A stretch of 64,000 bases of DNA from Curtobacterium sp. VKM Ac-2865 (lineage in GTDB: Bacteria; Actinomycetota; Actinomycetes; Actinomycetales; Microbacteriaceae), in the NCBI RefSeq assembly GCF_015350905.1, contig NZ_JADKRZ010000001.1, positions 682,001 through 746,000 of the forward strand, read 5' to 3'. The number at the start of each line of letters is the position of its first letter. The first letter of the stretch is position 1. Positions 20,173 through 47,109 of the stretch are shown piece by piece. Made by a program: the position numbers and the translations under genes. The notes beneath the pieces are model-generated. The model ran no database searches. It was not told the DNA's origin and was given only the letters and a program-made list of their open reading frames with translations.

Positions 20173-20220
20173 GACGGACTGGAGGCGCGGTGCCAGCTGG
20201 CGCCGCGCCTCCCGTCCGTC
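20173..20220. terminator. Bidirectional palindromic terminator, GGAGGC family
   Basis: GACGGACTGGAGGCGCGGTG and its near-complement ending at 20220 flank a CCAGCTGG centre. It lies between the convergent ends of sufE and the alpha/beta hydrolase, so it can serve both. Confidence 0.8.
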
Positions 20221-29153: not shown

Positions 29154-29197
29154 CGGACGGGAGGCGCGGTGCCAGCTGGTACCGCGCCTCCCGTCCG
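29154..29197. terminator. Palindromic terminator, GGAGGC family
   Basis: CGGACGGGAGGCGCGGT pairs with ACCGCGCCTCCCGTCCG around a GCCAGCTGGT centre. It lies 35 bases past the acn stop and just upstream of the dxs promoter, so it should insulate dxs from aconitase transcription. Confidence 0.8.
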
Positions 29198-32190: not shown

Positions 32191-33006
32191 CTACACGGCA
32201 GCCTGGTCCGGCTCGCGCCTGAACACCGTGCGGGTGAGCAGCCACGTCACCCAGAGCATCGCCGCGTAGAGCGGGACACCCGTGATGAGCTTGATGCCGG
32301 CGAGCAGTTCGACCTGCGCCGTCAGGTAGAGCGGGATCTCGATGACCAGCCGGAGCGTGAACAGTCCGACCCAGAGCCAGGTGGCGACCGTCAGCACGCG
32401 GCGCTTGCCCGGGTCGGCACGCCAGTCGGTGCCCGTGCCGTCCTCGTCCTGCGGCAGGAGCAGCCCGACGATGAGCCCGATGAGCGGCCGGCGGATCGCG
32501 AGCGTCGCGAGGAGCCCGACCAGGCACACCAGGTTGATGAGGATCCCGGGGATGAAGTTGCTCTCCGCCTTGCCGGTGATGAGTGCCAGACCGGCCGAGA
32601 TCGCCACGCCGAGGATGCCGGCGAACGACATCGCCAGGGACTGCCGCTGGGCCAGCCGGAGCACGACGAACACGAGCCCGACGAGGACGGGGATCACGAC
32701 GCTCGGGACGAGCTCCTTCGTGATCGCGTAGACGATCAGGAACGCGAAGCCCGGCAGCACCGACTCGGCGAGGCCTCGCACGCCACCGACGGCGGTCACC
32801 AGGGCGCGGCCGGAGGGGGCCTCTCCCGGTGCCACCTGGCCGATGCCCGCGTTCCGGACGGCGTCGCGGAGCTGCGCGTTCAGCGACAGCGGCTCGGCAC
32901 GCTCGTCGGCGAAGCGGTCGTCAGCGGAGCGGTCGTCAGCGGCCGGGGTGGTCGCGTCAGCAGACGCGGCCCCCTCGGGGTCAGCAGGGTCGAGACGGTC
33001 CGGCAC
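32191..33006 (-). CDS. DUF3159 membrane protein
   Basis: This is a 271-residue protein with an acidic, Asp/Ala-rich N-terminal 60 residues and about six membrane helices, for example VLPGFAFLIVYAITKELVPS, VVIPVLVGLVFVVLRLAQRQ and FIPGILINLVCLVGLLATLA. DUF3159 proteins are found with DUF3710 and dut in many actinobacteria; their function is unknown. GTG at 33006 has AGGAGG upstream, 15 bases after the DUF3710 gene. It is the last gene of the dut unit, 120 bases before acn. Confidence 0.88.
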   Translation of the reverse strand: MPDRLDPADPEGAASADATTPAADDRSADDRFADERAEPLSLNAQLRDAVRNAGIGQVAPGEAPSGRALVTAVGGVRGLAESVLPGFAFLIVYAITKELVPSVVIPVLVGLVFVVLRLAQRQSLAMSFAGILGVAISAGLALITGKAESNFIPGILINLVCLVGLLATLAIRRPLIGLIVGLLLPQDEDGTGTDWRADPGKRRVLTVATWLWVGLFTLRLVIEIPLYLTAQVELLAGIKLITGVPLYAAMLWVTWLLTRTVFRREPDQAAV

Positions 33007-33021
33007 CGGGCCTCCTGGTCG

Positions 33022-40615: not shown

Positions 40616-42742
40616 CTACACGTCGATGCGGTCGCGGTCCAGGCCCTCGCCGGCCAGGATGAACTCCTTGCGCGGGGCGACGTCGTTGCCCATCAGCAGC
40701 TCGAAGACCTTCGCAGCGGACTCGGCATGGGGCACCTGGACCCGACGCAGAGTGCGGTGCGCCCGGTCCATCGTCGTCTCCGCGAGCTGGTCGGCGTCCA
40801 TCTCGCCGAGCCCCTTGTAGCGCTGGATCGGCTCCTGGTACTTCTTCCCGGACTTCGCCAGCTTCTTCAGCACGGCCTGCAGCTCTTGCTCGGAGTACGT
40901 GTACAACGTGTCGTTCGGCTTGCCGCGGTTGATGACGACGACCCGGTGCAGCGGCGGCACCGCGGCGAACACCCGGCCCTGCTCGATCATCGGCCGCATG
41001 TAGCGGAAGAACAGCGTCAGGAGCAGCGTGCGGATGTGGGCGCCGTCGACGTCGGCGTCCGACATGATGATGACCTTGCCGTACCGGGCCTGGTCGAGCT
41101 CGAACGTGCGACCGGACCCGGCGCCGATGACCTGGATGATCGAGGCGCACTCGGCGTTCGAGAGCATGTCCGCGACGGATGCCTTCTGCACGTTGAGGAT
41201 CTTGCCGCGGATGGGCAGGAGCGCCTGGTACTCGCTGTTGCGCGCGAGCTTGGCGGTGCCGAGCGCGGAGTCGCCCTCGACGATGAAGAGCTCGGTGCCC
41301 TCGACGTCGTTCGACCGGCAGTCCGCCAGCTTCGTCGGCAGGGACGAGTTCTCGAGCGCGTTCTTCCGGCGCTGGGTCTCCTTGTGCGCTCGGGCTGAGA
41401 TGCGGGTCTTCATCTCCGCGACGACCTTCTCGAGCAGTCCGGCGGCCTGGGCCTTCTCGGTGCGCTGGGTCGACGTCAGGATCTCGGTCATCCGTTTCGA
41501 CACGACTGAGTCGACGACACGACGGACGGCCGGCGTCCCGAGGATCTCCTTCGTCTGGCCCTCGAACTGCGGCTCCGGCAGCCGGACGGTCAGCACGGCG
41601 GTGAGTCCCGCGAGCACGTCGTCCTTCTCGAGCTTGTCCTGCCCGAGCTTGAGCTTGCGGGCGTTGGCCTCGACCTGGGTGCGGACGGCCTTGACCAGCC
41701 CGGCCTCGAAGCCAGCCTGGTGGGTGCCGCCCTTCGGCGTGGCGATGATGTTCACGAAGCTGCGGAACACCGTCTCGTAGCCGTCGCCCCAGCGCAGGGC
41801 GATGTCGACCTCGCAGGTGCGCTCGACCTCGGTCGAGACCATGTGGCCCTTGTCGTCGAGCATCGGCACCGTCTCCTTGAAGGTGCCGGAGCCCTGGATG
41901 CGCCAGACGTCGGTCTTCGCACCGTCCACGGCGAGGTGCTCGACGAACTCGCCGATGCCGCCCTCGTACCGGAAGCGCTCGACGACCGGCCCTTCGGCGA
42001 CCTCGACACCCGTCGCGGCGGCGCGCTCGGCGGCCGCGGCGATCGCGGTCGGGCGTTCGTCGGTGATCGTGAGGCCGAGTCCGGGCACCAGGAACGCCGT
42101 CTGGCGCGCACGGTTCACCAGGTCCGCCATGCTGAAGGCGGCGTCCCTGGTGAAGATCTGCCGGTCGGCCCAGTAGCGGACCCGCGAGCCGGTGACGCCC
42201 TTCTTGACCTTGCCGACGACGCGCAGCTCACTGCCGGAGGTGAAGGGGCTGAACGGTGCGTCCGGGCCGATGCCGTCCGAGTCGTCGAACAGCCCGGGTT
42301 CCCCGCGACGGAACGACATCGCGTAGGTCTTGCCCCCGCGGTCGACCTCGACGTCGAGGCGCTCCGACAGCGCGTTCACGACCGAGGCGCCGACACCGTG
42401 GAGCCCGCCGGACGCCGCGTAGGACCCCGACCCGAACTTGCCGCCGGCATGCAGCTTCGTGAAGACGACCTCGACCCCGGTCAGGCCGGTCTTCGGCTCC
42501 ACGTCGACGGGGATGCCCCGGGCGGTGTCGGTGACCTGGACGGACCCGTCCGGGAACAACCGCACGCCGATCTCGTCACCGTGTCCGGCGAGGGCTTCGT
42601 CGACGGAGTTGTCGATGATCTCCCACAGGCAGTGCATCAGACCACGGGAGTCCGTCGACCCGATGTACATGCCGGGACGCTTCCGGACCGCCTCGAGTCC
42701 TTCGAGGACGGAGAGATGCCGTGCGGAGTAGTCGGAGCTCAC
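40616..42742 (-). CDS. parE: DNA topoisomerase IV subunit B (ParE)
   Basis: This is the ATPase subunit of topoisomerase IV. The 708-residue product begins MSSDYSARHLSVLEGLEAVR. The GHKL ATP site is IIDNSVDEALAGHGDEIGVR, with LHAGGKFGSGSYAASGGLHG then VGASVVNALS. The Toprim domain shows ELFIVEGDSALGTAKLARN, LPIRGKILNVQKASVADML and IIMSDADVDGAHIRTLLLTL. The C-terminal YKGLGEMDADQLAETTMD completes the type IIA B subunit. GTG at 42742 lies right after a GGGAG run, so initiation spacing is odd; no better start is nearby. Confidence 0.94.
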   Translation of the reverse strand: MSSDYSARHLSVLEGLEAVRKRPGMYIGSTDSRGLMHCLWEIIDNSVDEALAGHGDEIGVRLFPDGSVQVTDTARGIPVDVEPKTGLTGVEVVFTKLHAGGKFGSGSYAASGGLHGVGASVVNALSERLDVEVDRGGKTYAMSFRRGEPGLFDDSDGIGPDAPFSPFTSGSELRVVGKVKKGVTGSRVRYWADRQIFTRDAAFSMADLVNRARQTAFLVPGLGLTITDERPTAIAAAAERAAATGVEVAEGPVVERFRYEGGIGEFVEHLAVDGAKTDVWRIQGSGTFKETVPMLDDKGHMVSTEVERTCEVDIALRWGDGYETVFRSFVNIIATPKGGTHQAGFEAGLVKAVRTQVEANARKLKLGQDKLEKDDVLAGLTAVLTVRLPEPQFEGQTKEILGTPAVRRVVDSVVSKRMTEILTSTQRTEKAQAAGLLEKVVAEMKTRISARAHKETQRRKNALENSSLPTKLADCRSNDVEGTELFIVEGDSALGTAKLARNSEYQALLPIRGKILNVQKASVADMLSNAECASIIQVIGAGSGRTFELDQARYGKVIIMSDADVDGAHIRTLLLTLFFRYMRPMIEQGRVFAAVPPLHRVVVINRGKPNDTLYTYSEQELQAVLKKLAKSGKKYQEPIQRYKGLGEMDADQLAETTMDRAHRTLRRVQVPHAESAAKVFELLMGNDVAPRKEFILAGEGLDRDRIDV

Positions 42743-43158: not shown

Positions 43159-43198
43159 GACGGGAGGCCCGGTGCCAGTTGGCACCGGGCCTCCTGTC
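43159..43198. terminator. Bidirectional palindromic terminator, GGAGGC family
   Basis: GACGGGAGGCCCGGTGCCA is followed by a nearly perfect complement ending CCTGTC. It lies between the convergent ends of the DUF7455-like gene and the secreted-protein gene. Confidence 0.8.
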
Positions 43199-43748: not shown

Positions 43749-43782
43749 ACGAAGGCCGGGCCCGTGCGGGCCCGGCCTTCGT
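43749..43782 (-). terminator. Terminator hairpin of rpoD-murT-gatD
   Basis: ACGAAGGCCGGGCCC (43749-43763) pairs perfectly with GGGCCCGGCCTTCGT (43768-43782) around a four-base loop, just past the gatD stop. Confidence 0.8.
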
Positions 43783-43787
43783 GAGCG

Positions 43788-44561
43788 TCACGCGATGCGC
43801 TTGAACGCCTTGTCGACGTAGCGGTCGACCGTCGCCCGCGCTTCGCGCGCGTACCGGTCGATGGTCGCCGTCTGCTCCGGGTCCGGCGCGTACTCGCGGC
43901 CCCGCCGCGCGGCGGCCGCGGCGAGGACACCGTCGGTGAGGGCCGGGTTCAGCGGCAGGAGCGGGCCCTGCGCGTGGGTGCCGAAGGAGGTCCCGCGGCC
44001 GGCGCCCTCCACCGGGGAACCGGCCTGGTTCCCGCCACCGGAGACGACGTCAGCGAACGGGGTGACGCCTGCGCCGAGCTCGATCCGCGTGGCGTGGTCC
44101 TCGAACGCTGCGAGCCGCTTGGAGGCACCGTCGAGCAGCGGGTAGCGGGTCTCGAGCACGAAGTAGTTGACGCGACGCTCGGCACCGCGGACGGCTCGGG
44201 CATCGAACACACCGAACCCCTGCACCGGAGCGCCCTCCGTCGGGATGACCTCGTTCGTCGCGAGGTCGAACCCGCCACCGACCGCGACCATCGGCACGCC
44301 CGCGGCCACGAGGTCGCGGAGGGGCGCTGCGATGCGCGCGACGTCGCTCCCGAGGGACCGCATCGCGCTGAGCGGGCCGTTCCCGATGACGACGACGTCC
44401 GCCGCGGCGGGCAGGTCGCCGCCCGGGGCGTACTCGACGACCTCGGTCGGGAGGCCGGCGGCGGCGGCACGACGGGTGAGGGCGACCACGTTGCCGCGGT
44501 CCCCCGACACCCCCATCTGCCGCGGGTAGACGTGCAGGATGGTCAGGCGATCGGCCGTCAT
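43788..44561 (-). CDS. GatD-like class I amidotransferase homologue lacking the catalytic Cys and His
   Basis: In canonical systems GatD releases ammonia from glutamine and passes it to MurT, which amidates D-Glu in lipid II. This 257-residue protein keeps the fold: LHVYPRQMGVSGDRGNVVAL, VVVIGNGPLSAMRSLGSDVA and FEDHATRIELGAG. The nucleophile segment reads VPMVAVGGGFDLATNE, where canonical GatD has a Cys-Gly-Gly-Tyr-Gln pattern, so Gly95 replaces Cys and Asp99 replaces Gln. The His segment reads GTHAQGPLLPLNPAL, with Gln198 in place of the catalytic His. The protein has no cysteine at all. It overlaps the murT-like gene by ATGA. It is likely an inactive glutaminase subunit with a structural or altered role. 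Confidence 0.85.
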   Translation of the reverse strand: MTADRLTILHVYPRQMGVSGDRGNVVALTRRAAAAGLPTEVVEYAPGGDLPAAADVVVIGNGPLSAMRSLGSDVARIAAPLRDLVAAGVPMVAVGGGFDLATNEVIPTEGAPVQGFGVFDARAVRGAERRVNYFVLETRYPLLDGASKRLAAFEDHATRIELGAGVTPFADVVSGGGNQAGSPVEGAGRGTSFGTHAQGPLLPLNPALTDGVLAAAAARRGREYAPDPEQTATIDRYAREARATVDRYVDKAFKRIA

Positions 44562-45817
44562 GCGGTCTTCTCCAGGTCCGGGTGGCCGAGGGCCTTCCGG
44601 GCGATCATCATGATCTCGTAGTTGACGATGAAGTTCTTCGTGCCGGTGCTCGTCGTGCCGAGGCCCTGCATGTGCTTGATGGCGGTCTCGACGTCGGGTT
44701 CGACCCGGCCGATCCGGACGCCGGCGTGTTCGAGGGCGATCGCGATCTGCCAGGCCTTGTCACCGGAGACGACGTCGACGTGGTCGAGCTTGGAGAAGTC
44801 GATGTCGTAGATCCACGAGATGTCCGGGGTGCCCTCGTCGATCGCCATGAGCACCTGCTCGGGGTGGTCCGGCAGTGCGTCGAGGTTCAGCTGCAGGCTC
44901 GCGGCGTTCTTGAACATCGTGAACTCGGCGGACTCGCCGGCGATGGGCAGTCGCTCACCACGGCCGTACGCCGGCTTCATCGTCGAGAAGGCCCGCGTGA
45001 CGGCGTCCGGTCGGAACTGCGTGCCGAGCGCGGCACTGGCCGTGGCCGTCGCCGCAGCGGCGTCGACCGCGTAGTGCAGCCCACGGGCGGGCAGGCGCAC
45101 GGCGATGTCCGATCCCGCGAAGGCGATCGTCGCGGCGTCGCCGGTGTGCTCGGTGACCTCGGCGTCGATGACCGACTGCTCGGCGTCAGCGCGGTCGAAG
45201 TCGTCGGCGTTCTGCAGGCCGTTCGGGCTCGCGGCGACGATGGCGGGGCTCGCACCGAAGCGCAGCACCCGCTGGCCGTCGACGGCCGTGTAGGCGTCGA
45301 GGAACTGGTCGTCGTGGTTGGTGATGACGTTCGCGGTCGACAGTGCCGCCGTGTCGAGCATCATCGTCGCCACGCGCTCGGTCTCGAAGAACCGGTAGAG
45401 CTGGTCGACCTGGACGTTGAGCATCGTCACGGTGGACGGCGACAGGATGCCGGCGAGCTCCACGGCGAAGGCCTCGTCGACCTCGAGGATGCCGATGTCC
45501 GCCTTGAGCCGACCGGTCAGCGAGACCTCCGACAGCAGCGCGGACGCGATGCCCTGCGGCAGGTTCGCGCCCGACGGGTTGGTGAAGACCCGGAGCCCGT
45601 GTGCCCGGACGATGTCCGAGATCATGTGCGTCGTCGTGGACTTGCCGTTCGACCCCAGCACGAAGACGACCCCGTTGGGGAACTGCTCCGTGACGCGCTG
45701 CAGGAAGTCCGGCACGAGCTTCAGGACGATGAAGCCCGGGTAGGCGGACCCCCCGCCCCGCGCACGGGCGAGGGCGCGGAGGATCCGCCCGATGAGGATC
45801 GGGATGAAGAAGCGCAC
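44558..45817 (-). CDS. MurT-like Mur ligase without the zinc ribbon
   Basis: This is a 419-residue Mur-ligase-family protein. The ATP loop is GVVFVLGSNGKSTTTHMISD (residues 55-63 core), with GILEVDEAFAVEL and MLNVQVDQLYRFFETERVAT. The C-terminal MurT domain (DUF1727) keeps DEGTPDISWIYDIDFSKLD, including the Asp before SWIYD that completes the GatD triad in other species. The Cys4 ribbon that normally interrupts the central domain is absent, and there is no Cys in the protein. GTG at 45817 is eight bases after rpoD, and the 3' end overlaps gatD. It probably ligates something to the D-Glu alpha-carboxyl of a peptidoglycan precursor; the nucleophile is uncertain. Confidence 0.85.
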   Translation of the reverse strand: MRFFIPILIGRILRALARARGGGSAYPGFIVLKLVPDFLQRVTEQFPNGVVFVLGSNGKSTTTHMISDIVRAHGLRVFTNPSGANLPQGIASALLSEVSLTGRLKADIGILEVDEAFAVELAGILSPSTVTMLNVQVDQLYRFFETERVATMMLDTAALSTANVITNHDDQFLDAYTAVDGQRVLRFGASPAIVAASPNGLQNADDFDRADAEQSVIDAEVTEHTGDAATIAFAGSDIAVRLPARGLHYAVDAAAATATASAALGTQFRPDAVTRAFSTMKPAYGRGERLPIAGESAEFTMFKNAASLQLNLDALPDHPEQVLMAIDEGTPDISWIYDIDFSKLDHVDVVSGDKAWQIAIALEHAGVRIGRVEPDVETAIKHMQGLGTTSTGTKNFIVNYEIMMIARKALGHPDLEKTA

Positions 45818-45825
45818 CGCTCGGC

Positions 45826-47109
<1,284 letters not shown>

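Follow-up and report, generated by a model that had tools for sequence, protein, structure and literature searches.

What does a MurT/GatD pair do once the glutaminase residues of its GatD are gone? The question is raised by two minus-strand genes in a 64,000-nucleotide stretch of the Curtobacterium sp. VKM Ac-2865 genome (contig NZ_JADKRZ010000001.1, positions 682,001 to 746,000; hereafter the window), which resemble the subunits of lipid II isoglutaminyl synthase. We consider it probable that this pair and its relatives, here called the W type (a MurT without zinc ribbon and a GatD in which the nucleophile Cys is replaced), have been repurposed, with MurT ligating an amino acid, possibly a D-diamino acid, to the alpha-carboxyl of D-Glu and GatD acting as a non-hydrolytic partner. 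Group-B peptidoglycan, in which the 2-4 cross-link runs through D-Glu, was reportedly classified by Schleifer and Kandler in 1972. Among open-access full texts, we found no paper naming an enzyme that places the group-B bridge residue on D-Glu and none on a glutaminase-dead MurT/GatD; in Microbacteriaceae, the W pair is a candidate for this role.

The window GatD aligns with Staphylococcus aureus GatD (6gs2_A; HMMER, 3.4e-18) such that Gly95 (VAVGGGFDL) falls on the ICGG motif and Gln198 (THAQGP) on TYLHGP, which bears out the preliminary description of this DNA, where Gly had been read in place of the nucleophile Cys and Gln in place of the catalytic His. The same description had MurT keeping its ATP loop and Asp-SWIYD motif while lacking the Cys4 ribbon, and both proteins devoid of cysteine; indeed, GSNGKSTTT and DISWIYD are retained, the ribbon is absent, and neither protein contains a single Cys. 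The pair reaches the Pfam gathering scores for GATase_3 (PF07685; 37.9 bits, cut-off 27), MurT_C (PF08353; 36.7, cut-off 25) and Mur_ligase_M (PF08245; 39.6, cut-off 24), and stays far below the NCBIfam equivalog cut-offs (75.3 of 450 and 91 of 800 bits). The AlphaFold models adopt the expected folds, with a predicted local distance difference test score (pLDDT) of 92.6 and a Z of 29.8 to Streptococcus pyogenes GatD (9sq9_D) for GatD, and a pLDDT of 88.5 with Z of 30.7 to S. pyogenes MurT (9sqj_AAA) and 27.9 to MurC (7bva_B) for MurT. The whole genome of the window holds one MurT_C match and four GATase_3 matches, the best of which is the GatD of the pair itself.

The substitutions are shared across the W type. 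At the position of the Cys, 56 of the 72 W GatD rows have Gly, 12 Ala, three Ser and one Thr, and none has Cys; Cys is likewise absent from the 26 W GatDs read from named genomes (28 of which carry W), and the glutaminase residues are lost in all nine Curtobacterium rows read. The ratio of nonsynonymous to synonymous substitution rates (dN/dS) between the window pair and four genomes of the same genus is 0.15-0.21 for MurT and 0.21-0.30 for GatD, showing that the pair is under purifying selection; against three other genera the values are 0.38-0.66 and 0.52-0.74, respectively, with dS not to be trusted at that distance because the simple-count estimate fails to grow with it. The nine concordant Curtobacterium rows, the complete lack of Cys and the low within-genus dN/dS together argue that the loss of Cys and His is neither chance nor a sequencing slip. 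On the ligase side, K59, N85, E112, D114, E115, R142, R286, N304 and D332 are invariant in all 73 W MurT rows, including the P-loop Lys (K59), the acceptor-binding Asn (N85) and the Asp-Glu pair (D114/E115); pneumococcal mutants at the counterparts (K59, N85, D112/E113) retain 1-3% activity according to excerpts of PMC6085368. GatD Arg129 is kept in 70 of the 72 W rows and in all nine rows of the M type described below, and its S. aureus counterpart, Arg128, is thought to capture glutamine (PMC6085368, same excerpts). Judged from the alignments, only the glutaminase residues of the window pair are gone, and the ligase residues are intact.

To what extent the family shares this state was assessed in 249 Microbacteriaceae genomes from 85 genera, the assembly of the window included, typed by residues for the loci fetched and by scores for the remainder. 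The W type is present in 162. A second glutaminase-dead type, M, found in 14, has His or Gln substituted for the Cys and Ile or Leu for the His in the nine GatD proteins read (four of the 13 M loci gave no GatD match). Pairs with Cys and His intact occur as the C1 type alone, without ribbon, in 17 genomes and as the C2 type, with ribbon, in five; two genomes have an X type, and 47 gave no MurT match at E 1e-20. G005 and G099 were left unclassified, and G220, with both W and M and 5% contamination, was counted as W. W and M species stand side by side in four genera (g37, g42, g48 and g67). C1 also accompanies W in some genomes (G163, a Curtobacterium, G054 and G209), and in Leifsonia aquatica a second pair of the intact type, judged by score, coexists with W, which we read as paralogy. 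A second, intact pair had been held to speak against repurposing: the window's genome, with its one MurT_C match, has none, but its relatives G163 and L. aquatica do.

Among 396 genomes of the order (34 Microbacteriaceae, 362 other), W-level scores (566 bits or more) were confined to Microbacteriaceae, the best of the others reaching 418.7 bits. Of the 129 genomes from other families in which PF08353 matched, 50 had their GatD read, and 48 of these loci have both Cys and His. Because the scores of diverged W rows drop to those of intact non-family pairs, the restriction of W to the family rests on the scores together with these 50 readings. PF08353, a profile that misses some W types, had no match in 257 of the 396 genomes, so that the universality of the MurT/GatD operon in Actinobacteria, as stated in an excerpt of PMC6085368, fails here. 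We also searched 49 named genomes, drawn from at least 80 named loci of a 16S rRNA pattern that passed over genomes lacking its 16S end (3 of the 51 16S rows from the family); no Microbacterium was among the named 16S matches listed. Judged by how many species it holds, genus g85 is probably Microbacterium, although none of the named 16S sequences lay close to it. W was found in 28, all Microbacteriaceae: Curtobacterium (4/4), Clavibacter (3/3), Leifsonia (4/4), Agromyces (4/4), Cryobacterium (3/3), Frigoribacterium, Herbiconiux and Naasia (2/2 each), and Glaciibacter, Rathayibacter, Agreia and Aquiluna (1/1 each). C1 only was found in Leucobacter (7/7, by score; Cys and His in the four GatDs read) and Amnibacterium (1/1), M in Galbitalea, and, by score, C2 in Aurantimicrobium and a canonical-like pair in Actinopolymorpha.

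In a quick, midpoint-rooted MurT tree with some long branches, W forms one clade (73 rows; Shimodaira-Hasegawa-like approximate likelihood-ratio test, SH-aLRT, 100) on the same side of the root as the ribbon-less C1-type rows, and M forms another (13 rows, SH-aLRT 99) on the side with most ribbon-bearing rows. Since the M clade is separate from the W clade, at least two losses of the glutaminase must have taken place at a single locus. The preliminary description had tied the loss of the ribbon to the repurposing, an idea that we reject. Scored by a C..C/C..C pattern, the ribbon motif is absent from 43 of the 48 intact non-family pairs read and present in 11 of the 13 M-type MurTs; it is also present in the two non-family exceptions (L136 and L137, from G556 and G565 of f7/g91), in which Arg replaces the Cys and Gln the His of GatD. 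Ribbon loss and glutaminase loss are thus independent, as intact pairs are mostly ribbon-less and the dead pairs of M and f7/g91 mostly ribbon-bearing. In Actinomycetales, as far as the sequences tell, the Cys4 ribbon is not a defining feature of MurT/GatD; excerpts of PMC6085368 likewise place it in only some Actinobacteria. As a separate observation, L136 and L137 represent a further dead-GatD lineage outside Microbacteriaceae.

The strongest argument for the putative ligation of the bridge amino acid by the W pair is the exchange of the pair, at the same place, for ligases of other families, together with racemases and one diaminobutyrate transaminase. On the minus strand, a gene which we take to be the principal sigma factor rpoD/sigA (45826..47109) is followed after 8 bases by MurT, then by GatD, an inverted repeat, a gap and a gene which we take to encode a GyrB/ParE-type topoisomerase subunit (40616..42742); the GatD and MurT open reading frames (ORFs) share a 4-base overlap. 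At most 100 bases separate the rpoD stop from the opening of the MurT frame in 43 of the 46 W loci and in all 13 M loci; of the remaining three W loci, one lies 831 bases from rpoD and two have rpoD outside the piece examined. In 20 rpoD downstream regions from genomes without W or M, with genes called by a heuristic based on GC content at third codon positions (GC3) that may miss or misplace them, a CofE-like protein (PF01996 in the one protein run on Pfam) lies directly past rpoD in 10, in one case with one gene between. Seven of these 10 regions also encode an ATP-grasp protein of the ATPgrasp_ST type (PF14397 for both that were run on Pfam), and seven have an alanine-racemase (Alr)-like gene before parE. 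A MurJ lipid II flippase gene lies inside the interval of G084 (L515:2029-3615), and in Gulosibacter hominis an EctB-type diaminobutyrate transaminase (TIGR02407, 595 bits, cut-off 552) stands directly past rpoD (L529:1298-2551). The wall of Gulosibacter contains diaminobutyrate (DAB) or D-ornithine (excerpt of PMC6113628), and this EctB is a likely source of its wall DAB. The regions of Klugiella, Leucobacter chironomi, Amnibacterium, G014, G024 and G070 have no CofE-like, ATP-grasp, racemase, MurJ or EctB gene among the GC3 calls.

Searched through the 249 genomes, a CofE-like profile (A3) gave 37 strong matches, all among the 47 MurT-less genomes, compared with none in the 176 W or M genomes (37/47 versus 0/176; Fisher test, 4.4e-24, kinship ignored). 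The match lies past rpoD in all seven of the 37 genomes in which rpoD was located. Because 11 genera hold both W or M species and CofE-like species, the exchange of ligases must have been repeated; sister species with W and with CofE-like modules occur, for instance, in an Agromyces-like genus (g79) and a Microcella-like one (g74). Beside the W pair itself, 17 of 46 loci have an Alr-like gene, identified by BLAST clustering and, for locus L048, by Pfam. We put forward tentatively, as a reading that may or may not hold, that the rpoD-parE interval is a group-B bridge module in which W and M independently became amino-acid ligases with an amino-acid-binding GatD, CofE-like and ATP-grasp proteins replace them within genera, and the ligase present sets the bridge chemistry.

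A mechanism is suggested by S. aureus, where, according to excerpts of PMC3266927, neither MurT nor GatD works alone, GatD C94G is still required, and the C94G complex loses the use of glutamine and keeps ammonia-dependent amidation of lipid II at pH 8.5 (not seen at pH 7.5). The W pair carries a C94G-like change, and MurT should therefore still activate the D-Glu carboxyl and take a nucleophile not derived from glutamine. It would bind ATP and activate a peptidoglycan precursor, by analogy a lipid-linked one, at the alpha-carboxyl of its D-Glu, and most likely an amino acid would take the place of glutamine-derived ammonia. Having lost Cys and His and kept its Arg and fold, GatD would be an obligatory partner that possibly grips the carboxylate of the amino acid to be added, through the amino-acid-capturing Arg. 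In Curtobacterium, whose bridge residue we assume to be D-ornithine, this amino acid would be the donor and end up in the group-B interpeptide bridge. Acceptor, donor and chemistry are what we infer for the W pair as a whole.

Several observations weigh against this reading. The catalytic His is present in 38 of the 72 W GatD rows, and N304 and D332 are changed in M-type MurTs, so that the two types do not necessarily work in the same way. Racemase genes adjoin only the 17 of 46 W loci mentioned above; the window's genome has three Ala_racemase_C matches, a tandem pair and a third, all on another contig, and the tandem pair lies at what we take to be a glmS-tsaD-like housekeeping locus, not beside W. 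The functions ascribed to the CofE-like and ATP-grasp genes are putative, three weak CofE-like matches fall in the two X genomes and in a W genome (G147), and both MurT and a CofE-like protein are missing from 10 of the 249 family genomes, so that other solutions must exist. MurT gave no match at E 1e-15 in 10 of the 49 named genomes, seven of them Microbacteriaceae (Klugiella, Agrococcus, two Gulosibacter, two Homoserinibacter and Microcella) and three from other families (Cellulomonas avistercoris, Microlunatus parietis and Galactobacter). Leucobacter, a group-B genus (excerpt of PMC4804768), has only canonical-type pairs. The earlier proposal that the loss tracks group B finds partial support at most: the 28 W genomes among the 49 named are all Microbacteriaceae, but Leucobacter is canonical-type and seven family genomes gave no MurT match; a strict correspondence of W with group B is rejected on account of Leucobacter, Gulosibacter and others. 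Finally, amidation of D-Glu is reported among Clavibacter michiganensis muropeptides (excerpt of PMC9603630), which fits a remaining amidase role.

That report also favours the alternative which survives best, namely that the pair is still an amidotransferase, now using free ammonia, with MurT amidating the D-Glu of non-bridge stems and GatD as a scaffold. S. aureus MurT with GatD C94G does just this at pH 8.5, although no activity was seen at pH 7.5 (PMC3266927, same excerpts); moreover, an amide would block the very carboxyl that carries the bridge, and neither the same-place exchange with other ligase genes nor the racemases would be expected, which makes this explanation unlikely. Ligation of an amino acid or amine elsewhere, such as a Gly branch on D-Glu or an addition to the amino acid at position 3, in place of the cross-linking diamino acid, would suit a family in which position-1, position-3 and bridge residues differ (excerpts of PMC7033078 and PMC4156110). 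In Clavibacter, a W genus, however, what D-Glu carries is the bridge itself, D-DAB (PMC9603630); in a table of PMC7033078, two further W genera, Cryobacterium and Frigoribacterium, are listed as B2gamma with DAB and B2beta with D-Lys, respectively; and racemase-like genes stand beside 17 of 46 W loci, so that we regard ligation elsewhere as distinctly unlikely. It is conceivable that W would go with B2 walls, in which the D-diamino acid sits straight on D-Glu, and the other modules with bridges beginning with Gly; Paramicrobacterium, for its part, is described as B2 with D-ornithine (excerpt of PMC10757982). Retention of Arg129 without catalytic residues would also suit a GatD that has become an amino-acid-binding regulatory sensor, with MurT acting on an unrelated substrate, but the acceptor-binding N85 and the Mg-binding D114/E115 are kept, and this explanation appears quite improbable. 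A relict, that is, a decaying amidotransferase with no enzymatic role, can be dismissed as hardly credible despite the poor conservation of GatD (the window protein shares 24-50% identity with W rows from other genera), given the within-genus dN/dS of 0.15-0.30, the nine ATP and acceptor residues that never vary across 73 rows and the retention of W in 162 of 249 genomes.

The features of the locus are collected in the table. The inverted repeat just past GatD was not called by a terminator scan because it is not T-rich. The window MurT is 97% identical to that of Curtobacterium sp. GC_Cur_3 and 92% to that of C. pusillum, and the 16S rRNA of a same-genus genome is 99.2% identical to that of C. 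pusillum; these identities underlie the assignment of genus g1, that of the window, to Curtobacterium.

Table. Positions (window numbering) of the MurT/GatD pair, its key codons and the adjoining repeat
Feature	Position	Strand	Basis
GatD-like protein, glutaminase-dead, W type, 257 aa	43788..44561	-	ORF, Pfam, HMMER alignment, AlphaFold model
MurT-like Mur ligase without zinc ribbon, W type, 419 aa, GTG start	44558..45817	-	ORF, Pfam, alignment, AlphaFold model
Gly95 codon, at nucleophile-Cys place of GatD	44277..44279	-	HMMER alignment to S. aureus GatD
Gln198 codon, at catalytic-His place of GatD	43968..43970	-	HMMER alignment to S. aureus GatD
Arg129 codon, kept; counterpart of S. aureus GatD Arg128	44175..44177	-	alignment
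MurT P-loop GSNGK including Lys59	45641..45655	-	alignment
Asp332 codon of MurT D-x-SWIYD motif	44822..44824	-	invariant in W rows
Perfect 16-bp inverted repeat, terminator-like, just past GatD stop	43749..43782	-	repeat search

Some further observations concern neighbouring subjects. The third Ala_racemase_C match of the window's genome adjoins a D-Ala-D-Ala-ligase-like gene (PF07478, PF01820; L539:5153-6235, contig 8 of G000), and the two may possibly form a second D-amino-acid pathway. The X-type MurT of G053 (genus g53; L040/L540) is very diverged, carries the ribbon motif and has a GatD-like neighbour without Cys; the weak CofE-like match of this genome adjoins the X MurT, far from rpoD, and an Alr-like gene lies by rpoD. 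A dispersed palindromic repeat, GGGAGGC(C/G)CGGTGCCA and its inverse separated by a 2-base gap, occurs in the window at 43162-43195, 29159-29192 and 20180-20213, with a half-site at 33001-33016 (7 matches with at most 2 mismatches, compared with 0.25 expected), and again on another contig (L538:19208-19241); it looks like an intergenic BOX/REP-type element.

If the favoured reading is right, a glutamine amidotransferase has dropped its glutaminase to take up a whole amino acid. The findings supply candidate genes, the place where they lie and, in sister species whose ligases have been exchanged, a natural experiment. With the lipid II isoglutaminyl synthase of S. aureus and Streptococcus pneumoniae, the window pair shares the gene pair, both folds and the ATP and acceptor residues, and differs in a GatD without Cys and His, a MurT without ribbon, and scores below the NCBIfam cut-offs. 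The S. aureus GatD C94G complex has the identical Cys-to-Gly change, and its MurT still needs GatD; it is, however, a laboratory mutant with ammonia as donor, and the excerpts of PMC3266927 mention no amino-acid donor for it. With the amino-acid-adding ligases MurC to MurF, the window MurT has the fold in common (MurC 7bva_B, Z 27.9), and the type of mechanism is expected to be alike, whereas it is expected to need a GatD-like partner. On the domain layout that we assume for MurC to MurF, it also lacks their UDP-binding N-terminal domain. M-type pairs are alike in a GatD without Cys and His (9/9) and in the position after rpoD (13/13) and differ in having the ribbon motif (11/13) and a clade of their own. 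The CofE-like (PF01996) and ATPgrasp_ST (PF14397) genes belong to unrelated ligase families and yet occupy the same rpoD-parE interval, often together with Alr-like genes.

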